64,000 nucleotides of DNA, from NCBI RefSeq assembly GCF_007993755.1, contig NZ_CP042467.1, forward strand, positions 5,356,001 through 5,420,000. The letters are read 5' to 3'. Below are positions 1 to 64,000 of this stretch, piece by piece. The position numbers were made by a program, and so were the translations under genes. Numbering within the stretch: position 1 is the first letter of the stretch; every line of letters begins with the position of its first letter. Below the pieces are notes generated by a model. The model had not been told where the DNA came from, did not search any database, and saw nothing but the letters and a program-made list of their open reading frames with translations. The DNA comes from Microvenator marinus (GTDB lineage: Bacteria; Myxococcota_A; Bradymonadia; Bradymonadales; Bradymonadaceae).

Positions 1-3000
1 GAAGCGGTTCACCAAGAGACGGGAGCCGTGGAGATGGCGCTGGCGGGCCTCAAGTTCCCTCCGACCGACCTCAAAGAGACCATTCCTCAGCAGCTCACGA
101 TTTTGAATGCTGCCCGTCAGGCATTGACTCAGACTGAAGTGGACCCCCTCAGAACCGGTGTTTTCCTCGGCACAGAGCCGGACAATGAGGTTTGCCGGTA
201 TGGCCTTAGGTGGAGGCTTCCACACTGGTGCAGACGAATGGGACTAGACCCGGCTGAGCATCAGTCTTGGATCGAACGCAATAAAGACTTGGTGGTGCCT
301 CGCCTGACTTCGGCTGGCGTTGTGGGCACCATGCCCAACATCCCTGCGAATCGCCTGAACAATCAGTTCGATTTAGGTGGGCAGTCGTTTACGGTCTTTG
401 GAGGACCGGCGTCGGGTCAGATTGCGCTTCATTTGGCAGCGCGTGCGATTGAGTCGGGAGAGCTAGATGCTGCGTTGGTCGGGGCCGTGGACATGTGCGC
501 GGACCAGGTCCACAGACGGGCTCAGACGGACTTGGAGCGTGGCCCCGGCGAGGGGCAGCTGGTTGAGGGAGCCGATGCGGCCGTGATGTTGGTCATCAAG
601 CGCGCAACAGATGCTCAGCGGGCAGGGGATACCATCTTGGGCCGCCTCAGTTTGAGTGGTCCGAGCTTTCCTCAGCTTGGTGCGAACCATGCTGCACAAG
701 GACTTAGGGATTTGGCTTTGGGTTATGCCCAGGGACTTAAAACACATTACCAACCGGAAGGCCCAACCTTGAGTTTTCCTGGACATAACCACGTGAAGAT
801 TGAGCCTCTGCCTGGTGGCATGGCTGCGAGACAAACCATGAGCGATATTCAAAAAATGGCGCCTGCGCCGAGCCTTCCTAAAACTGATTGGGTTGAACCC
901 GTGAACTCGGGCGTAAACGTGGGCTCTGTCCATGTCCCTGTAAACGCGGTCCCTGCCCCTGTGAACGCGGGCTCCGTCCGCGTTGAAACCAATGTTGTAC
1001 CGACTCAAAACTTGGAACTCTTGCGAAATAGCCTGTCAGAGATTGGGCAGATGCAGCAACGGTTCTTGGCAGAGCAGAGTGCGTTGTTTCAGCAGTTTAT
1101 GGCTGTTCAATCACAAGGTATGGCCCTGCTTCATGCGGCTCAGAACGGAGTCCAACACGCGCCAGTGTCGGTAAATGGTCCGACGATCAATGGTCCGTCT
1201 TTGAGTTTGCGTTCGGAATCACAACGCACAGAGAGCCCGCGTGTACACTCTATTCCGTCCTCGGCACCCCAAGAGCCTTTAACACCTCCTTCGGCACCTC
1301 AGGCGCCCAAGAACGGAGTGGGTCACGAATCGCAACGTGCGGAGAGCCCGACTATCCACTCCACTCCAGCACCGCAGGTAGTTTCGAAACCAAAACCGAT
1401 TTCGGTACCTCAGGCGCCGAAGAACGCTGTGGGTAAGGAGACGCAACGCGAAGAAAGCCCGCGTGTAGAGGTTCAAGCGTCGCACGGCATCAAGTTCGAC
1501 GAGTGGCGCGAGCCCATCGGGCCCACCTGGGGTTTTGAAGAGCTCAAGATTCACGCGTCTGGAAAGATCAGCGAAATCTACGGAGACATTTTCAAAGTTC
1601 AGGACGACTTCCACCGTCAGGTGCGCATGCCGGAGCCGCCGCTCCTGCTTGCTGACCGAGTCACCGGGATGGACGCTGAGCCTGGCTCCATGAAAACAGG
1701 TACCATCTGGACCGAGACCGACCTCAGACCCGACGCGTGGTACCTGCACGAAGGCCACGTCCCACCCGGCATCATGATCGAGTCGGGCCAAGCGGACTTG
1801 ATGCTCATCTCCTACCTTGGCGTAGACTTTACGAACAAGAGTGAGCGCATCTACCGACTACTCGGATGCGAACTGACCTACTTCGGTGGCATGCCCAAAG
1901 CCGGCGACACCATGGAGTACCAAATCGTGCTCGATGGTCACGCCAAACAAGGCGGTACTCGCCTCATGTTCTTCCATTACGACTGTCGCGTAGATGGCGA
2001 GGTTCGCCTCGCGGTCAGAAAGGGGCAGGCGGGATTCTTCACTGACGAAGAGCTTGCGAACTCCGAAGGGTGTTTGTGGAAGCCCGAGACCCAAGAGATC
2101 AAGGCTGACGCTACCGTTGATGCACCTTTCGCGATGTGTACTCGTGAGACTTTTGACGCGGACCAAATCCGCGCGTTTGCCGACGGCCGTCCTTGGGATT
2201 GTTTTGGAGAGGGCTTCGAAGTCTCGAAGACGCATACCCGAACGCCTCGGATCCAAAACGGAAAGATGCTCTTCCACGACAATATCGAGATCAAGATCCC
2301 GGGCCGGGATGCTCAAGCAGGGCCGTGGAATCGGGGCTATTTGAAGTCCACTTGGGAGGTAGATCCCGACCATTGGTTCTTCGACGGGCACTTCAAGAAC
2401 GACCCGTGTATGCCGGGCACCCTGATGTTTGACGGATGTCTTCAGGCGATGGCGTTCTACATGGCGGCGCAGGGCATCACCCTTGAGCGCGATGGCTGGC
2501 GCTTTGAGCTCGTCCCAGAGATTCCGTACCAACTCAGCTGCCGTGGCCAGGTGACCCCTCAGGCCAAAGTTCTTACCTATGAGATTTTCGTAGAAGAGTT
2601 TGTGGCAGGGCCAATCCCCACAATCTATGCGGATTTGCTCTGCACCGTTGATGGCCTAAAGGCCTTCCATGCCCGCCGGGTAGGACTGCAGCTCATCCCG
2701 AGTTGGCCGCTCGATGAGGGCAGTAAGCTCCTTGACGGCTACGTCGAGAAAGAAGGCGTTGCCACTGCCAACGGCTTCCCATTTGACTATCGCTCCATGC
2801 TCGCCTGTGCAAACGGCCGCCCGTCTGAGGCTTTCGGTCCGATTTACGACCGGTTTGACTCACACATACGCGTCGCGCGCCTTCCAAACCCGCCGTATCA
2901 CTTTGTGACTCGGGTTTCGCGACTTGAGGGCGAGATCGGCTCGATGCAGAAGGGAATGGAAGTGGATATCGAGTACGATATCCCGGCCGACGCCTGGTAT

Positions 3001-5952
3001 TTTGACGAGAATGGCTGCCGAAACATGCCGTTTGCGGTCTTGCTCGAGGCGGCGCTTCAGCCGTGTGGCTGGCTCGCTTCATATCTCGGCTGCGCGCTGA
3101 CCGTCGATCGCGAGCTCTTCTTCCGAAACCTCGATGGCACCGGTACTTTGCACGTGGACTTGCTTCCCGACGCCGGCACCATGGTTACCAAAGTCAAGAG
3201 CACGAATATCTCCAAGACCGGTCCGATGATCATCGTCGGTTTTGAGGTCGAGTGTTTGATTGGTGATACGCTGGTCTACGACTTGAAGACGGTCTTTGGA
3301 TTCTTCCCCGCGGAAGCTCTGCAAAACCAGATTGGACTTCCGACCACAGACGAGCAGCGCGCGTTGTTGAACGCCGAGCCGCTCAACGCCGTCAACCTTA
3401 AGGACCGTCCAAAAGGCTATTGGGAGAATGCACGACCTAAGCTCGCCGAGCCGATGTTGTTGATGATCGACCGTGTGGCCTATTTTGACCCGAAAGGCGG
3501 GCCGGCGGGACTTGGAGCGCTCCGCGCCGAGAAAGACGTAGACCCTGGCGAGTGGTTCTTTAAGGCTCACTTCTTCCAGGACCCGGTGCAACCTGGGTCA
3601 TTGGGGATCGAGGCGATGATCCAACTCCTTCAGTTCTACATGCTCGAAACTGGTATGGACGAAGGCATTGAGAATCCGCGTTTTGAGACCTTGAGTCACG
3701 CTCATGAGATGACTTGGAAGTACCGCGGACAGGTGATTCCGAAGAATAAGCTGATCCAGACCACCATCGAGATCACCGAGACCGGACGCGACGAAGACGG
3801 TGTTTATGCTGTGTGTAATGCCTCCCTATGGGTGGACAGCAAGCGCATCTATGAAGCCTTCAATATGGGCATGCGTATCGTGAGCGGGGGAGGGGGCGAA
3901 AGGCGCACTCTGACCCTGGATCCGGCTAAGGACACATGGCTCAACGACCATTGTCCGACCTACACGTTGCCCGCTCTTCCGATGATGAGCATGGTGGACT
4001 TGCTTGCACAGGGAGCATGCACGGCCGACCAGGTCACCCGCCTCGAAGACGTACGAATCAAGGGCTGGCTTGCCCTCGACGGTGCCAAAGAAGTCTGGAC
4101 CGAGCGAAGTGGCGAGCAGGTCAAACTCCTCGTTGCAGGGGCCGATGGGCCTCGTGAGGTGGCAAGTGCGCGCGTGATTACTGGCGAATTTACGGCACGT
4201 CCCGTACCGCTAAAGCCACTCAAGGGTGAGAAGATTAGTGGGCAAGAGGTCTATCAAAGTGGAAACCTCTTCCATGGCCCCGCGTTCCAGATCCTGCAGG
4301 ATATGGTGCGCACGGCTGAGGGAGCGACGTCTTGGTTGAGTGCTGCTGGGCCGGCCGATATGCAAGGTCGCGTTAATGGCTTGCTCCTTGACGGTGCGAC
4401 TCACTCAATTCCTCACGATAACCTCCAGATTTGGGGTGATAAATACGAGGCTGATAAAGTCGCGTATCCGGCCTTGATTCCGGAGATTAGGTTCTTTGGA
4501 CCCACGCCAACCTCGGGAACGATTCGTTGCGAAGTTCGTCCTGACGGCTTCATGGGCAGTCCGGATTTCCCGGCGTTCAAAGTCCAACTCATCGATGAAT
4601 CCGGCGTCTGGTGCCAAATGCGCCTGGTTGAGGCGTGTTTTCCAAAGGGAACTCTGGGCTCAGCAGATCCAGCTGACCGACAGCGCTTTTTGAGGGACCG
4701 CGAATACGTCGAGGGCGTCCGAATCTCTAGCGCTCAAGGCGAAGATACCTTTGTGACCGAGGCGGACATCAAAGCCGTGGATTGGTTTCCCGGCACGGTA
4801 GATGCCGTCTATGGTTTGAAAAACTCCAGCTCTGCTCTGACCAAAGTTCAACAAATCGGGATCAAAGAGCATATTGCTGCAGCGCACAAAATCCATCCTG
4901 GGGTGCTTCCCGATGCATTGCCACTAACCAAGTTCAAGCTCGAGGCGCGACAGTCCGGCTCCGAGGTCACGGTCAAAGGTGACCCTAACGGAAAGCTAGA
5001 TATCAAGAGCGTTCGGGAGTTCTGGACTCAGTGGTTTGACCGCGATCCTTGGCCTGTAGAGGACCTCTATTACGGGCTGATTGAGCGTTTTGTGCGCCGC
5101 ATCATCGTCACCGATCCAAAGGCATTAGAAGCCATCAAAGGCCAAAGTACGCTCTTCCTTGCGAACCATCAGATTGGTGTAGAGTCCTTGCTCTTTTCCG
5201 TCATCGCGTCGGGCCTCACGGAGGTTCCCACCGTGACTCTCGCAAAGATCGAGCACAAGTACACATGGCTTGGTAAACTCATCGACCTCTGCTTCCGTTA
5301 TCCTGAAGTAAGAGACCCCAAGGTCATCACGTTCTTCGATCGCGAAGACAAGGCGTCCTTGCCGGCGATCATCAACGAACTCGCCGTGGAGATGGCGGGC
5401 CCGGGGCGCTCGGTCATGGTGCATATCGAAGGCACACGTTCGCTAGAATGCAGGACACCTGTGCAAAAGATGAGTGGGGCGTTCATCGATATGGCGCTCG
5501 GCGTCAACGCGCCCATCGTTCCGGTGCGCTTTGTGGGCGGGTTACCCGTGGATCCTTTGGAAAAACGAATCGAATTCCCCATCGGAATGGGCAAACAAGA
5601 TATCTACTTCGGACGCCCGATCATGCCTGAGGAGCTTTCGAAGCTGCATTACGGCGCTCGAAAAGAGCTCGTGGTGTCGAGCATCAATGAGCTTGGGCCA
5701 CCCAATTCAATCGAAGAACCCATCACCGGTGATCCAGACTTTGCAGCGAAAGTGGACGCTTGGATGGACTCGCACCCCGGCGTCTTGCACGAACACGCGA
5801 CGCTTCGAGAAATGCTCGCCGAGCTCGCTCAGCCAGGCGAGGAAGTCGCCAGATTGCTCGCTGCCAAGTCGGCCGAAGACATCGACGCCTCTGCGCCAAA
5901 GGGCGCATGGCTAAGAGAGTTTGCGGAGCAGTTGATAGGCAAGAAGGCTTAA
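1..5952 (+). CDS. pfaC: PfaC-like PUFA synthase subunit, 5'-truncated by window edge
   Basis: Multidomain iterative lipid synthase. The first codon offered is GTG at 28, but the frame is open to base 1 and the first domain is headless, so the gene starts upstream; residues here count from that GTG. A ketosynthase-fold chain-length factor comes first (about 1-260), with the active-site Cys position reading Pro in FGGPASGQIALHLA (about 124-137). A Pro/Gln-rich linker follows (270-490). Four FabA-like hot-dog folds follow, marked near 569, 781 (WFFDGHF), 988 and 1174 (WFFKAHF), matching the known pseudoDH-DH tetradomain. Next is a PKS-type dehydratase with H1308 and D1455 and an FHGPAFQ motif near 1415. 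Last is a PlsC-like acyltransferase with NH at 1713-1714 and EGTRS at 1801. A C-terminal acylglycerolphosphate acyltransferase is a known trait of terrestrial myxobacterial Pfa3. Its NHx4D motif reads NHx4E here. Confidence 0.9.
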   Translation, partial: EAVHQETGAVEMALAGLKFPPTDLKETIPQQLTILNAARQALTQTEVDPLRTGVFLGTEPDNEVCRYGLRWRLPHWCRRMGLDPAEHQSWIERNKDLVVPRLTSAGVVGTMPNIPANRLNNQFDLGGQSFTVFGGPASGQIALHLAARAIESGELDAALVGAVDMCADQVHRRAQTDLERGPGEGQLVEGADAAVMLVIKRATDAQRAGDTILGRLSLSGPSFPQLGANHAAQGLRDLALGYAQGLKTHYQPEGPTLSFPGHNHVKIEPLPGGMAARQTMSDIQKMAPAPSLPKTDWVEPVNSGVNVGSVHVPVNAVPAPVNAGSVRVETNVVPTQNLELLRNSLSEIGQMQQRFLAEQSALFQQFMAVQSQGMALLHAAQNGVQHAPVSVNGPTINGPSLSLRSESQRTESPRVHSIPSSAPQEPLTPPSAPQAPKNGVGHESQRAESPTIHSTPAPQVVSKPKPISVPQAPKNAVGKETQREESPRVEVQASHGIKFDEWREPIGPTWGFEELKIHASGKISEIYGDIFKVQDDFHRQVRMPEPPLLLADRVTGMDAEPGSMKTGTIWTETDLRPDAWYLHEGHVPPGIMIESGQADLMLISYLGVDFTNKSERIYRLLGCELTYFGGMPKAGDTMEYQIVLDGHAKQGGTRLMFFHYDCRVDGEVRLAVRKGQAGFFTDEELANSEGCLWKPETQEIKADATVDAPFAMCTRETFDADQIRAFADGRPWDCFGEGFEVSKTHTRTPRIQNGKMLFHDNIEIKIPGRDAQAGPWNRGYLKSTWEVDPDHWFFDGHFKNDPCMPGTLMFDGCLQAMAFYMAAQGITLERDGWRFELVPEIPYQLSCRGQVTPQAKVLTYEIFVEEFVAGPIPTIYADLLCTVDGLKAFHARRVGLQLIPSWPLDEGSKLLDGYVEKEGVATANGFPFDYRSMLACANGRPSEAFGPIYDRFDSHIRVARLPNPPYHFVTRVSRLEGEIGSMQKGMEVDIEYDIPADAWYFDENGCRNMPFAVLLEAALQPCGWLASYLGCALTVDRELFFRNLDGTGTLHVDLLPDAGTMVTKVKSTNISKTGPMIIVGFEVECLIGDTLVYDLKTVFGFFPAEALQNQIGLPTTDEQRALLNAEPLNAVNLKDRPKGYWENARPKLAEPMLLMIDRVAYFDPKGGPAGLGALRAEKDVDPGEWFFKAHFFQDPVQPGSLGIEAMIQLLQFYMLETGMDEGIENPRFETLSHAHEMTWKYRGQVIPKNKLIQTTIEITETGRDEDGVYAVCNASLWVDSKRIYEAFNMGMRIVSGGGGERRTLTLDPAKDTWLNDHCPTYTLPALPMMSMVDLLAQGACTADQVTRLEDVRIKGWLALDGAKEVWTERSGEQVKLLVAGADGPREVASARVITGEFTARPVPLKPLKGEKISGQEVYQSGNLFHGPAFQILQDMVRTAEGATSWLSAAGPADMQGRVNGLLLDGATHSIPHDNLQIWGDKYEADKVAYPALIPEIRFFGPTPTSGTIRCEVRPDGFMGSPDFPAFKVQLIDESGVWCQMRLVEACFPKGTLGSADPADRQRFLRDREYVEGVRISSAQGEDTFVTEADIKAVDWFPGTVDAVYGLKNSSSALTKVQQIGIKEHIAAAHKIHPGVLPDALPLTKFKLEARQSGSEVTVKGDPNGKLDIKSVREFWTQWFDRDPWPVEDLYYGLIERFVRRIIVTDPKALEAIKGQSTLFLANHQIGVESLLFSVIASGLTEVPTVTLAKIEHKYTWLGKLIDLCFRYPEVRDPKVITFFDREDKASLPAIINELAVEMAGPGRSVMVHIEGTRSLECRTPVQKMSGAFIDMALGVNAPIVPVRFVGGLPVDPLEKRIEFPIGMGKQDIYFGRPIMPEELSKLHYGARKELVVSSINELGPPNSIEEPITGDPDFAAKVDAWMDSHPGVLHEHATLREMLAELAQPGEEVARLLAAKSAEDIDASAPKGAWLREFAEQLIGKKA
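917..935 (+). repeat. Palindromic element copy 1 (in-frame in PfaC linker)
   Basis: Arms ACGTGG and CCATGT (one G-U pair if transcribed) enclose the loop GCTCTGT. The copy lies in frame in the low-complexity linker of the PfaC-like protein, where it encodes part of VNVGSVHVPVN. The same loop recurs near 971, 13185, 14944, 15011 and 55330. Confidence 0.55.
964..984 (+). repeat. Palindromic element copy 2 (in-frame in PfaC linker)
   Basis: Perfect 7-bp arms AACGCGG and CCGCGTT enclose GCTCCGT, a one-base variant of the common loop. It encodes part of VNAGSVRVETN and follows copy 1 by 28 bases, giving the linker a VN-x-GSV-x-V repeat. Confidence 0.6.
1223..1247 (-). repeat. Degenerate palindromic element copy in PfaC linker
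   Basis: The 15-mer GAGCCCGCGTGTACA at 1233-1247 is identical to the one at 15014-15028, preceded by AACGC as in that copy. It encodes part of SQRTESPRVHS. Weaker versions occur around 1332-1352 (SQRAESPTIHS) and 1445-1470 (TQREESPRVEV), so the linker carries three diverged copies in this orientation. Confidence 0.4.
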
Positions 5953-12278: not shown

Positions 12279-13199
12279 ATGCTAGGTATTTATGAGAGAA
12301 AAAGACTTCCGTTAATCGCTGCTCCGATGTTCCTAGTCTCGGGCCTCGAGCTCGTGCGTGCGACCTGCAAAGAACAGGTGGTTGGGACCTTTCCCGCTCT
12401 GAATCAACGCACCACCGAGGGCTTTCAGGACTGGGTCCAAGAGCTCAATGAAACGCTTGGTCCCGAGGATTCGGCTTATGGCGTGAACTTGATCGTGCAT
12501 CGCTCGAACCCACGTCTCGAAGCAGATTTGGAAGTTTGTGTGGCAAATAAGGTTCCGCTGATCATCACGTCGCTTGGTGCGGTGCAGGAGGTCGTGGATG
12601 CCGTGCATTCCTATGGTGGACTGGTTTTTCACGACGTGACCACGCGCAGACACGCCGAGAAAGCTGCCGAGGCGGGCGTTGACGGGCTTATCCTGGTCAG
12701 CGGTGGAGCAGGGGGCCACGCCGGTTTCCTAAATCCGTTCGGGTTCTTCAACGAAGTCCGCGAGTTCTTCGACAAGACCGTTTTATTGGCGGGCTCGATC
12801 TCAACCGGCCGAGATATCGCAGCTGCGAAAGTTCTCGGTGCTGATTTTGCCTATGTGGGTACGCGATTTGTGGCCACTAAGGAGAGCAGTGCGCAGCCTG
12901 AATACAAGCAGATGGTTTGTGACGCGCGCACCGCCGATATTGTGCATACGCCGGCAGTTTCTGGGGTTCCAGCCAATTTCATGCGGCAAAGCCTCGAGGC
13001 CAATGGCTTTGACATGAAAGAGCTCACGAAGCCTGGGCATGTCAATTTCGGCGAAAAGCTTTCGATGAGTGAGGAGGCCAAGGCGTGGAAGACGATTTGG
13101 TCGGCCGGACATGGTGCCGCGGCGATTCACGACATCCCGAGCGTCAAAGACTTGGTAGCAAGAATGAAAGACGAGTACACGCGGGCTCTGTCCGCGTGA
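12279..13199 (+). CDS. Nitronate monooxygenase / 2-nitropropane dioxygenase-like flavoprotein
   Basis: 306-residue FMN TIM-barrel protein. LIAAPMFLVSG near the N-terminus and the flavin-binding GGAGGHAGF (around 146-154) are hallmarks of the NMO/FabK-like superfamily; later motifs are LLAGSISTGRDIAAAKVLGADFAYVGTRF in two adjoining blocks. Members oxidise nitronates or act as enoyl reductases (FabK, PfaD-related). Although a PUFA synthase gene lies 6 kb away, this protein is much shorter than PfaD, so PUFA enoyl reduction is only a possibility. AAGGAG precedes ATG 12279. Its last codons (TRALSA-stop) are formed by a palindromic element. Confidence 0.88.
   Translation: MLGIYERKRLPLIAAPMFLVSGLELVRATCKEQVVGTFPALNQRTTEGFQDWVQELNETLGPEDSAYGVNLIVHRSNPRLEADLEVCVANKVPLIITSLGAVQEVVDAVHSYGGLVFHDVTTRRHAEKAAEAGVDGLILVSGGAGGHAGFLNPFGFFNEVREFFDKTVLLAGSISTGRDIAAAKVLGADFAYVGTRFVATKESSAQPEYKQMVCDARTADIVHTPAVSGVPANFMRQSLEANGFDMKELTKPGHVNFGEKLSMSEEAKAWKTIWSAGHGAAAIHDIPSVKDLVARMKDEYTRALSA
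13175..13199 (+). repeat. Palindromic element copy at 3' end of flavoprotein gene
   Basis: Arms ACGCGG and CCGCGT enclose GCTCTGT, preceded by GTAC. The right arm runs into the TGA stop, so the element supplies the last codons of the gene. A related element lies 35 nt on, at the end of the opposing gene. Confidence 0.65.
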
Positions 13200-13870: not shown

Positions 13871-14926
13871 ATGAATGTGTTCAAGTTGATTGTCTTGTCT
13901 GTGGCGCTTTTGGGTTTTGCCTGTGGAGATCCGCCAACCAAGAAGGCGGGAACCTCGTCGGCCGGCACCTTGAACCTGCCATGCTATCCAAACGATACCT
14001 GCAATCCTGGGCTCATTTGTACGGATGGGTTCTGCAGGTCTATGGACAATCCGAACAATCCCACAAACAATTCCAACAACTCGAATAACCCCACGAATAA
14101 TTTCAATAACCCAACCAACAACTTCAACAATCCGACCAATAATCAGTCGAACACCGGCAATCAAAATAACCTAACCAACCAGAACAATCCGACCAATAAT
14201 CAGAACAATCCAGTTATCATCTGCGGCGACTCCTTCGCGGAAGGGAACGAGGCTTGTGATACCAGCGATTTGCGCGGAAACACCTGCACAAGCGTGGGTT
14301 TTGCGGGTGGTGGAACATTGAGGTGTCAAGCCAACTGCGCCGGTTTCGATACCTCGAGTTGTTTCAGAAGTCTCTGTGGGAATGGTCGCCTAGATGGTGG
14401 CGAACTTTGCGACGGCACCGACCTCGGCGCCCAAAGCTGCACGTCCTTGGGCTACGACTCTGGGACACTAAGATGCACTACGAGTTGTGAGTTCGACGAA
14501 TCCCTTTGCCGCTCCAACCAATGTGGAGACGGGTTAGCACAGGGAGCGGAGCAGTGCGACGGAAACGACCTTCAAGGATTGAATTGCCAATCGTTTGGGT
14601 ATGACGACGGAAGCCTTTCCTGCGGTGGCACGTGCCAGGTGGACCTCGCGGGCTGCTTCAATAACAGCTCCTTTGCTTGTGGATTGCAGCAGCCAGAGGG
14701 CGGTACGTGTTCTGTCAACAACCCGAACTCGTGTGCGTGCATGGGTTGTTTGAGTCAATGTGAAGTTACGACAACTAGCTTCCCGCCCACGACTGAGTAC
14801 AGCGATTGTGTGTGTGCGGTATGCAATGGCAATGACGGGTGCAACACCTGCAACAACGACGGACAATGTGACCCCTTCTTCGAATCATGCTCCTGTGGTG
14901 ATTGTGTAGACCACCCGCTTTGTTAA
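13871..14926 (+). CDS. Cys-rich repeat lipoprotein with Asn/Thr-rich linker
   Basis: 351 residues, probably surface exposed. Lipobox GFAC after MNVFKLIVLSVALL; AGGAG upstream of ATG 13871. After a short Cys pair domain (CYPNDTCNPGLICTDGFC) comes a low-complexity stretch of NN-P-T units (about 58-115). Three tandem Cys repeats of about 47 residues follow, each opening CG-x2-x4-G-x-E-x-CD and carrying C-x-S-x-G-Y/F. These resemble the Cys-rich repeats frequent in myxobacterial surface proteins. A last Cys-dense segment ends CSCGDCVDHPLC. No enzymatic motif; adhesion or surface structure is an inference. Confidence 0.85.
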   Translation: MNVFKLIVLSVALLGFACGDPPTKKAGTSSAGTLNLPCYPNDTCNPGLICTDGFCRSMDNPNNPTNNSNNSNNPTNNFNNPTNNFNNPTNNQSNTGNQNNLTNQNNPTNNQNNPVIICGDSFAEGNEACDTSDLRGNTCTSVGFAGGGTLRCQANCAGFDTSSCFRSLCGNGRLDGGELCDGTDLGAQSCTSLGYDSGTLRCTTSCEFDESLCRSNQCGDGLAQGAEQCDGNDLQGLNCQSFGYDDGSLSCGGTCQVDLAGCFNNSSFACGLQQPEGGTCSVNNPNSCACMGCLSQCEVTTTSFPPTTEYSDCVCAVCNGNDGCNTCNNDGQCDPFFESCSCGDCVDHPLC

Positions 14927-14932
14927 GACTCG

Positions 14933-14957
14933 TGTAGAGGAGGGCTCTGTCGTCCTG
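14933..14957 (+). repeat. Palindromic element copy downstream of Cys-rich lipoprotein
   Basis: TGTAG flank, arms AGGAGG and CGTCCT (one mismatch) around the invariant GCTCTGT loop, 6 nt after the TAA stop at 14924-14926. Opposite orientation to the copy at 15005. Confidence 0.55.
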
Positions 14958-14980
14958 AGTATCAAGACCCCATGGATACT

Positions 14981-16330
14981 ATGAAAATCTGCAGAACTCA
15001 TCCAACGCGGACAGAGCCCGCGTGTACAATTCTGGCGCTCTGCTTGGTCCTAGTTAGTTGCTCATCAGATCCAGACCCTCCCGTCCAGGACATGGGCACC
15101 CAGGAAGACGTCTCAAGTTCCGTAGATTTTAGCACCCAAGACGATCTCAGCACCTCCGAGGATCTCGGCACCTCTGAAGATCTCAGCGACCTGGAAGACC
15201 TTCCAGACCCTGACCCAAGCGTACTCGACCAAACCCTGGATGCCCTGCGTCAAGATTTCGAAGCTGAGAGACTTCGAATCGCCAATGAAACCGAGTCCGG
15301 ATGGCCGTTGGCCACCGAACAAGGCTATCTCGTGGTGACAGACTCCACTGAGTTTACCCACATAGCGGGCGATTTTGATGGCTGGCAGGGGCAAGCACTC
15401 ACCCAAGATACGGGCTTTAGGTGGGCAGTCATCAGTGAAGGACGAGCCTACAAGTTCCTTAGGATTCAAGACGAGACCCAGAGCAATTGGGCTGCCGATA
15501 TCTGGTCACGCGCCTACGGATGGGACGAGAATGGTCCAATCAGCTATCTGCGCTCGAGCATCGCTTCAGAGGCTCATAGAGAGCGTTTCTTCCAAATCGG
15601 AACTCAGACTGTGAGCCGACGTACCGTCCGTGTCTGGGTGCCTTCTGGCGAGCCCACAGCGTTGATTTACGCACACGATGGCCAGAACCTCTTTGAACCC
15701 GATGCCATCAACGGTGGCTGGCGCCTCAATGAATCCGCGCCAGAAGGGCTGATGATCGTTGGGGTCGACAATACCCCCGAGCGCTTTCAAGACTATACGC
15801 ACACCACCGACAACGCGACCGGCTCCTCCGTTGGAGGTGGCGCCGACGCCTACCTGGCCATGATCAAGGACCAAGTCCGGCCATTGATTGCACAACACTA
15901 CGGCGAGCCAGCCAAAGTTGGAATGATGGGGTCTTCGTTGGGTGGCCTAGTCTCGCTTTACGCGGCCTTGACGCAAACCTCAGACTACGATTTCGTGGCG
16001 AGTCTTTCGGGCACCGCCGGCTGGGGAAGCATCGACGCTCAGAACCAAACGATCATCGACTTGTTTGAGGCGGCAGCAAAACCGGAAATCCGCATCTACA
16101 TCGACTCAGGAGGGTTTGGCGATTGCGCAGACTCCGACGGTGATGGCATCGAAGACGACGGAGATGGCACCGACAACTACTGTGAAAACAAACAGTTGGA
16201 AGCAGTCTTGTTGAATAAAGGATTTGTGGCCGGCGTAGACTTCTGGCACTGGCACGAGCCCGGCGCGCCTCATAACGAATCGGCCTGGGCGGACCGGGTG
16301 TTTCGGCCGCTGGCAGCTTTCTTAGAGTGA
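14981..16330 (+). CDS. Secreted esterase lipoprotein (esterase D / feruloyl esterase-like)
   Basis: About 449 residues (ATG 14972 three codons earlier is possible). Signal ends LVSC. Acidic DL/EDL repeats (about 35-75) lead to an E-set/CBM48-like region (FTHIAGDFDGWQG) and then an alpha/beta hydrolase of the enterochelin-esterase/YieL type. The nucleophile Ser is in MMGSSLGGLVSLYA, with AHDGQNLF near the strand that supports the oxyanion site; candidate acid and His lie in IYIDSGG and GAPHNESAW. A Ca-binding-like stretch of Asp/Gly (DSDGDGIEDDGDGTD) interrupts the C-terminal part. The signal-peptide coding region contains a palindromic element (15005-15028), which lengthens the n-region. Confidence 0.85.
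   Translation: MKICRTHPTRTEPACTILALCLVLVSCSSDPDPPVQDMGTQEDVSSSVDFSTQDDLSTSEDLGTSEDLSDLEDLPDPDPSVLDQTLDALRQDFEAERLRIANETESGWPLATEQGYLVVTDSTEFTHIAGDFDGWQGQALTQDTGFRWAVISEGRAYKFLRIQDETQSNWAADIWSRAYGWDENGPISYLRSSIASEAHRERFFQIGTQTVSRRTVRVWVPSGEPTALIYAHDGQNLFEPDAINGGWRLNESAPEGLMIVGVDNTPERFQDYTHTTDNATGSSVGGGADAYLAMIKDQVRPLIAQHYGEPAKVGMMGSSLGGLVSLYAALTQTSDYDFVASLSGTAGWGSIDAQNQTIIDLFEAAAKPEIRIYIDSGGFGDCADSDGDGIEDDGDGTDNYCENKQLEAVLLNKGFVAGVDFWHWHEPGAPHNESAWADRVFRPLAAFLE
15005..15028 (-). repeat. Palindromic element copy inside signal-peptide coding region
   Basis: Perfect arms ACGCGG and CCGCGT around ACAGAGC (the loop GCTCTGT on the minus strand), followed by GTACA. It is read in frame as TRTEPACT in the esterase signal peptide. 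Confidence 0.65.
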
Positions 16331-38586: not shown

Positions 38587-38600
38587 GAAGTTATCATTTT

Positions 38601-38750
38601 TCGTGAAAAATCATCACAAATGGCCCATTCTCGTGAAAAGTCATCACAGATGGCCCATTCTCGTGAAAAATCATCACAAATGGCCCGTTCTCGTGAAAAG
38701 TCATCACAAATGGCTCGTTCTCGTGAAAAATGAACACATTCGGAGGGTCT
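38601..38750 (+). repeat. 30-bp tandem repeat array upstream of Hsp70 gene
   Basis: Four full copies and one partial copy of a 30-bp unit beginning TCGTGAAAAA and ending CATTC/CGTTC, contiguous with no spacers. Position 10 alternates A, G, A, G, A, so the array probably grew by duplicating 60-bp pairs. It lies in the 240-nt gap between the MpaB-like stop (38586) and the Hsp70 ATG (38827). TTTTTCGTGAAAAA at the left edge is itself a near-palindrome. A regulator-binding array is plausible; the unit is a multiple of 3 but no gene is supported there. Confidence 0.85.
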
Positions 38751-55318: not shown

Positions 55319-55343
55319 TGTACAAGCGGGCTCTGTCCGCTTG
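55319..55343 (+). repeat. Palindromic element copy between minus-strand genes
   Basis: TGTACAAGCGG and CCGCTTG arms (7-bp perfect stem CAAGCGG/CCGCTTG) around GCTCTGT. The only intergenic copy far from the main cluster, showing that the element is dispersed. Confidence 0.65.
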
Positions 55344-63306: not shown

Positions 63307-64000
63307 TCAGGGAAATTCCAGACAAACGCCCAGGTAGCGCACGCCGTTGGGGCCGATATCGTAGGAGTCGGTAGACGAGACGTAACCCGAATCTGACGAA
63401 GTCTCTCCCTTTCGATAGAGGATGTCGTAGACGCCAGGCATCAGGCGCTCCGCGTCTGTGCGGCGAAGGTTCGGGGTGTAGTACGAGTCCCAGTAGAAGC
63501 GTGAGAGTTGATGCCGCACACCTGTGTCACGCGAGACCGCGTAGACCATATGGCTCGTGGAGTCGCTGCCATCGTTCGATAGAGGTTGGTCGGCGAGCGT
63601 GATGTCGAATGTGATGGGAGTTTGGGGAATGTCGATGTCGATCATTTGCGACATACCCACCTGAACAACCACGTCGCGCGCCAGGTATCGCACGCCATTC
63701 GGCCCGATATCATAAGTGTCCGTGCTGCTTACAAAGCCAGAATCTGTGCTGGTTTCGCCCTTGCGGTAGAGGATGTCATAGGTGCCAGGCATCAGGCGGA
63801 GTGCGTCGGTGCGGCGAAGGTTCGGCGTGTAGTAGGAATCCCAATAAAATCTGGAAATTTGGTGTTTCACGCCCGTGTCTTTGGAGACGGCGTAGAGCAT
63901 GTGGCTTGTGGAATCGCTGCCGGCCGAGGGCAGTGGTTGGCCGTTCATCGTGATGTTGAGGGTGACCGGGCTTTGGTCGATGTTGATGTCGAGGGTTTGG
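63307..64000 (-). CDS. Tandem-repeat protein, 5' end beyond window
   Basis: At least 231 residues; the minus-strand frame stays open to 64000 (QTLDINIDQSPVTLNITMNG), so the start lies outside. Two copies of a 117-residue unit (351 bp apart at DNA level) with near-identical cores, such as RFYWDSYYTPNLRRTDA, GTYDILYRKGETS and DIGPNGVRYL. The second copy ends early at VRYLGVCLEFP. Beta-rich units with DSTSH and YDI motifs resemble carboxypeptidase-regulatory-like extracellular repeats; the number of upstream copies is unknown. Confidence 0.8.
   Translation of the reverse strand, partial: QTLDINIDQSPVTLNITMNGQPLPSAGSDSTSHMLYAVSKDTGVKHQISRFYWDSYYTPNLRRTDALRLMPGTYDILYRKGETSTDSGFVSSTDTYDIGPNGVRYLARDVVVQVGMSQMIDIDIPQTPITFDITLADQPLSNDGSDSTSHMVYAVSRDTGVRHQLSRFYWDSYYTPNLRRTDAERLMPGVYDILYRKGETSSDSGYVSSTDSYDIGPNGVRYLGVCLEFP

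Follow-up and report, generated by a model that had tools for sequence, protein, structure and literature searches.

A palindrome dispersed through the Microvenator marinus genome is also read in frame within an interdomain linker of its PfaC-type PUFA synthase subunit, and it is very probably a lineage-specific REP-like element that spread through the genome and persisted in frame where a protein tolerates the added residues. M. marinus V1718 is a marine predatory bacterium (PMC11509652). Its genome is a single contig of 5,847,748 bp, of which we analysed a stretch of 64,000 nt (positions 5356001-5420000, hereafter the window), with gene calls made from ORFs, codon scores and Pfam. The element would comprise a hairpin of ~24 nt and a tail of ~15 nt, often paired head to head, and after spreading across the genome it would have persisted mainly between genes and, in frame, at interdomain linkers, signal-peptide n-regions and C-terminal tails. 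Such mobility may have proceeded via a single-strand hairpin, with insertions that were probably selectively neutral, and the inserts are presumably translated.

Organization of the PfaC linker

The copies in the PfaC linker lie in two clusters, arranged as follows (window coordinates):

1..5952, + strand: PfaC-type PUFA synthase subunit with KS-like, three FabA-type DH and acyltransferase domains; the ORF begins before the window (full length 2394 aa)
805..1521, + strand: PfaC interdomain linker, approximately residues 269-507 of the ORF as translated from the window (aligned with the relative G004 and further relatives)
901..912, + strand: truncated 12-nt unit, VNSG (from sequence)
913..939, + strand: 27-nt unit with an element copy, VNVGSVHVP (copy core 912-935; model match 912-953)
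940..960, + strand: truncated 21-nt unit, VNAVPAP (from sequence)
961..987, + strand: 27-nt unit with an element copy, VNAGSVRVE (perfect stem; core match 960-983)
1009..1137, + strand: ancestral helix-like stretch beginning NLELLRNSLSEIGQMQQRFLAEQSALFQQFMAVQSQ, between the two clusters (alignable in relatives)
1171..1503, + strand: three 111-nt tandem units of 37 aa each, bearing the reverse-orientation copies (repeat and codon comparison)
1222..1247, - strand: reverse-orientation element copy, QRTESPRVH, with the tail-like TTGTGATTCC after it (pattern and model match)
1333..1358, - strand: degenerate copy in tandem unit 2, QRAESPTIH (8 mismatches, no model match)
1444..1469, - strand: copy in tandem unit 3, QREESPRVE (pattern and model match)

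The left cluster thus consists of four in-frame units of 12, 27, 21 and 27 nt, every length being divisible by three. In the copy at 913..939 the stem is ACGTGG/CCATGT, which is off-consensus on both sides with the pairing kept, and the tail of the degenerate copy, TTGCGATTC, resembles L007 and L025. A first-pass annotation of this DNA had described two palindrome copies and three reverse-orientation relatives encoding the repeated peptides VN-x-GSV and QR-x-ESPR-V. Both forward copies are present, and the peptides are read in frame as VNVGSV/VNAGSV and QRTESPRV/QRAESPTI/QREESPRV. The three reverse copies were also recovered, the middle one having drifted, but they belong to one 111-nt tandem duplication, and we discarded the idea of three independent reverse insertions. 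An identity of 15 nt (1233-1247) reported with an element at 15014 proved real and extends to 16 nt (AGAGCCCGCGTGTACA, 1232-1247), the partner being the element at 15005-15028.

When we compared the PfaC linkers of relatives, as the annotation had proposed, that of the closest relative was without the repeats, and the helix-like stretch between the clusters aligned with it. The simplest history for PfaC is therefore one of at least two separate insertions in opposite orientation, which would have landed one on each side of the ancestral helix-like segment and then each have been amplified by local tandem duplication in frame-keeping steps. The age and order of the pfaC copies are uncertain because the copies have diverged (2-8 mismatches).

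Genome-wide search for the palindrome

The consensus of the dispersed palindrome is TGTACA[C/A]GCGGGCTC[T/C]GTCCGC[G/T]T. It contains no stop codon in any of the six frames, and therefore a surviving insertion can lengthen a linker rather than kill the protein. The 24-mer with ≤3 mismatches matched 5 times in the window, as compared to 0 in 100 shuffles of the window, and 43 times in the whole genome, as compared to 0 for the reversed pattern. We then searched the genome with a covariance model built from 30 aligned copies, the pfaC copies being left out, and found at least 94 copies at E≤0.01, three of them in the PfaC linker. The model scored 150 candidates from a larger first look, so that the copy counts are lower bounds. 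At genome scale this pfaC-free model gave the linker copies E-values of 6e-7, 2.7e-4, 0.0097 and 2.1. These values are rough, as the calibration was shortened, and other genomes of the family were therefore used as a control. In 20 of them the same model returned one borderline match at E≤0.01, and these family-level relatives otherwise lack the palindrome. A scan of 84,980 species with the 19-nt core, from which the own genome was possibly left out, gave 14 hits, apparently scattered single matches. No Rfam family was found in the window.

Copies in other genes and proteins

Most copies are intergenic, and many copies lie at gene ends. Outside PfaC the window holds the following:

13174..13197, + strand: copy that makes up the C-terminal residues (EYTRALSA) of ORF 12279-13199, whose stop codon TGA begins at the element edge
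14933..14956, + strand: weakly matching left member of a head-to-head dimer, just past the stop of ORF 13871-14926
15005..15028, - strand: right member of this dimer, a consensus copy lying in frame within the signal-peptide n-region of a predicted lipoprotein (ORF 14972-16330)
55319..55342, + strand: intergenic copy with the stem variant AAGCGG/CCGCTT (pattern and model match)

Two repeats of the window are noted separately. Between ORFs at 38598-38747 there is a tandem repeat with the 30-nt unit TTCTCGTGAAAAATCATCACAAATGGCCCA, and a 263-nt direct repeat with 73% identity (63386-63999) runs up to the window end inside an open ORF.

Classifying all copies by their codons proved too weak for linkers and missed PfaC itself, and we therefore relied on ORF, Pfam and recoding evidence instead. 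The first-pass annotation had also suggested a search of other linkers in the proteome, and further flexible regions were indeed found to carry copies. The internal copies lie in unrelated proteins that all have Pfam domains. A PKS has in-frame copies at four sites in carrier-protein linkers. Single in-frame copies are present in the ACP1-ACP2 linker of PfaA, in a Ser/Thr kinase-PEGA linker, in the DnaX linker and, as a strong match, in the linker of a MenD-MenH fusion. We ruled out that the element had made the menD-menH fusion, since the relative G004 has the fusion without the element. The four paralogous PKS linkers show the hairpins to be separable modules. Linker 2 is without both hairpins and is shorter by 30 and 33 nt, with the intervening spacer still alignable, and it may represent either an empty site or a deletion.

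At protein N-termini, in-frame copies occur in signal-peptide n-regions of predicted lipoproteins, including the one at 15005 in the window; translation may bypass some of these, should the true start be farther downstream. C-terminal tail copies were found, for instance, in a dihydroorotate dehydrogenase, a DAO-family oxidoreductase and the ORF at 12279-13199. As a separate observation, L118:1-9042 is one ORF of >3014 aa in which a sorting-signal-like C-terminus, PGALLLLLICLQGLRPRRKK, runs into a lipoprotein-like signal, LIPCVVLAFMVGCGDD, and a weak element match lies at the join of the two.

Anatomy of the element and comparison with known palindromes

The stem consists of 7 pairs. In 105 aligned copies 98.1% of the cells were paired, and we counted 66 double changes, as compared to 16.6 in shuffled alignments and ≤10 in slid controls. 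The main stem classes are ACGCGG, ACGAGG, AAGCGG and AGGAGG, every class occurring with its own complement. Of 20 copy pairs lying <200 nt apart, 18 were head-to-head and none tail-to-tail. The head-to-head pairs have an overall length of 82-210 nt, the spacers between paired copies are unrelated in sequence from pair to pair, and the two ends of one pair can carry different stem classes.

The covarying stem and the head-to-head pairing are shared with the REP/REPIN elements of the GTAG and CGTC superfamilies (PMC3733652, PMC3116915), which likewise are short palindromes with a covarying stem, predominantly found as head-to-head dimers, mostly intergenic near gene ends, lineage-specific and sometimes in frame inside genes. 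The palindrome falls within the 20-40 nt, and its stem within the 5-13 bp, of GTAG-type REPs. GTAG-type REPs also have an unpaired terminal GTAG tag in most copies and an associated RAYT transposase gene, whereas in the 87 M. marinus copies read without indels the tag was mostly GTAC (34) or GTC(A/T) (GTCA 15, GTCT 13), followed by GTAA (10) and GTAG (4). A search of the genome for a RAYT/Y1 transposase gave no match to PF01797 and a best E of 0.58 for NF047646. As it departs from GTAG REPs in two defining features, the tag and the RAYT, the element is labelled REP-like and not a GTAG REP. A REPIN is an inverted REP doublet acting as a replicative unit. The M. marinus doublets are inverted, with spacers that are unrelated between copies, and the hosts here include PUFA and polyketide megasynthase linkers. 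REPtrons have been reported missing from some REP-bearing species, and intragenic REPs have been surveyed (PMC3733652).

The first-pass annotation had likened the element to the in-protein palindromes of Rickettsia. This holds as a likeness of kind, since both are palindromes that occur intergenically and also, in frame, within a number of unrelated protein genes, with open frames across the element. It does not hold as one of family, and the anatomy is of REP/REPIN type. Rickettsia RPEs are Rickettsia-specific and 105-146 bp long (PMC2229807), and judged from descriptions they are set apart by length and host from the M. marinus unit of ~24-42 nt in a myxococcotal lineage. In-protein palindromes are thus already known, from RPEs and from intragenic REPs, and the M. 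marinus element adds to them. It brings a free-living predatory lineage, as well as core and megasynthase enzymes, into their range, with >10 in-frame copies inside proteins of one genome. Protein-coding palindromic repeats reportedly occur in Wolbachia and Methanocaldococcus as well; likened by description only, they have palindromic repeats with coding potential in common with ours, in different organisms.

Origin of the copies in coding sequence

The repeats could be ordinary peptide repeats of a low-complexity linker that grew by local tandem duplication, their likeness to the palindrome being a coincidence of codons. Local tandem repeats are also seen in the PfaC and DnaX linkers of relatives, and in G010 (a third, Persicimonas-like genus) 7 of the 8 matches to the DnaX repeat fall in dnaX, which makes it essentially local and shows that purely local repeats do occur. 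We recoded the linker with synonymous codons, weighted by codon usage (2000 trials per site). The observed DNA match was reached by 0/2000 recodings at 1222, by 0.05% at 1444, by 0.2% at 960 and by 1.9% at 912. For the whole linker, 2 sites with ≤3 mismatches were observed, whereas 1000 recodings averaged 0.012 such sites and never had more than 1, and the changed codons between the 111-nt units comprised 21-27 non-synonymous and 3-5 synonymous ones. Because of the recoding and the mostly non-synonymous differences, the likeness to the palindrome is at the DNA level, beyond what the peptides require. Furthermore, the same DNA encodes different peptides in its two orientations, and the identical DNA family is present in unrelated proteins. 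Codon coincidence is thereby refuted for the copies at 960, 1222 and 1444; it still fits 1333 and other linker segments, and as a general account it is most improbable. In-frame invasion by a dispersed palindrome, as the first-pass annotation had proposed, is supported, and the outcome that it had set against this, conservation of amino acids with no DNA similarity, was not found at these three copies. It is also very unlikely that VHAGSVRV and RGQSPRV are protein motifs under selection, such as for docking or for the spacing of linkers. The linkers of megasynthases can be important for how domains are spaced, and VHAGSVRV recurs among the PfaA, PKS and MenD-MenH linkers, but different proteins use several reading frames of the element (VHAGSVRV, RGQSPRV, TRTEPAxT, HADRARVY and YTRALSA), the majority of copies are intergenic, the repeat units differ chiefly by non-synonymous changes and the motif is absent from relatives. 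We saw no sign of the peptide itself being conserved.

The many gene-end copies, the common arrangement of the pairs and the covarying stem would also suit transcription terminators, hairpins for RNA processing or palindromes that bind proteins at gene edges, with the coding copies as strays, and REPs elsewhere can act as RNA elements (PMC3733652). However, no T-run follows the consensus hairpin, copies deep inside ORFs would have to be silent, and a replicating family accounts better for the restriction to one lineage with more than one stem class, hence we consider this explanation improbable. We give similarly little credence to a MITE bounded by terminal inverted repeats that a DDE transposase would have mobilised, single copies then being decayed ends. 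The 18 head-to-head pairs and their overall lengths are what such an element might leave, but the pair interiors are unrelated at all 18, where a MITE would have a conserved interior, the paired ends sometimes differ in stem class, each end is a hairpin in itself, and no target-site duplication was evident by eye at the ends of the 18 listed pairs. Some observations count against the REP-like element that we favour: the genome search found no RAYT/Y1 transposase, which led us to reject RAYT-driven spread from within the M. marinus genome, and the pair spacers are unrelated, unlike those of a unit moving whole. Several large M. marinus proteins, among them an enzyme that makes fatty acids, look as if they carry pieces of selfish DNA in flexible stretches. 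As a warning for the interpretation of such genomes, read-through of repeat DNA can produce repeated peptides in linkers, extensions at N-termini and tails at C-termini.

An unrelated palindrome in the linkers of relatives

Three Lujinxingia-like genomes of one genus contain many copies of another palindrome, GACCnnnGGTC, that has no relation to the M. marinus element. It occurs in arrays between genes, at PfaC loci (L033, L035 and L042), where 8-15 copies lie mostly in the linker of the fetched loci, and in the DnaX linker (L204, L207 and L208; 13-29 copies), and it is absent from the MenD loci of these genomes. Read in opposite orientations it gives peptides of TLGH or TEGH type. The chances are about even that the linkers of PfaC and DnaX repeatedly act as sinks for the palindrome family that is active in a lineage, their length and sequence evolving largely by uptake of selfish DNA. 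A rule that all linker repeats of relatives are dispersed DNA families was ruled out by the local dnaX repeat of G010. That an unrelated palindrome in a sister genus makes parallel use of the linkers of PfaC and DnaX amounts to a natural experiment, from which one may learn how flexible linkers are assembled and whether palindrome DNA in a linker is just tolerated or put to use. Among the dnaX genes of relatives, the DnaX matches in L202 and L206 contain one in-frame TAA, which may mark a frameshift site or stem from an error in the assembly or from the way in which matches were joined.
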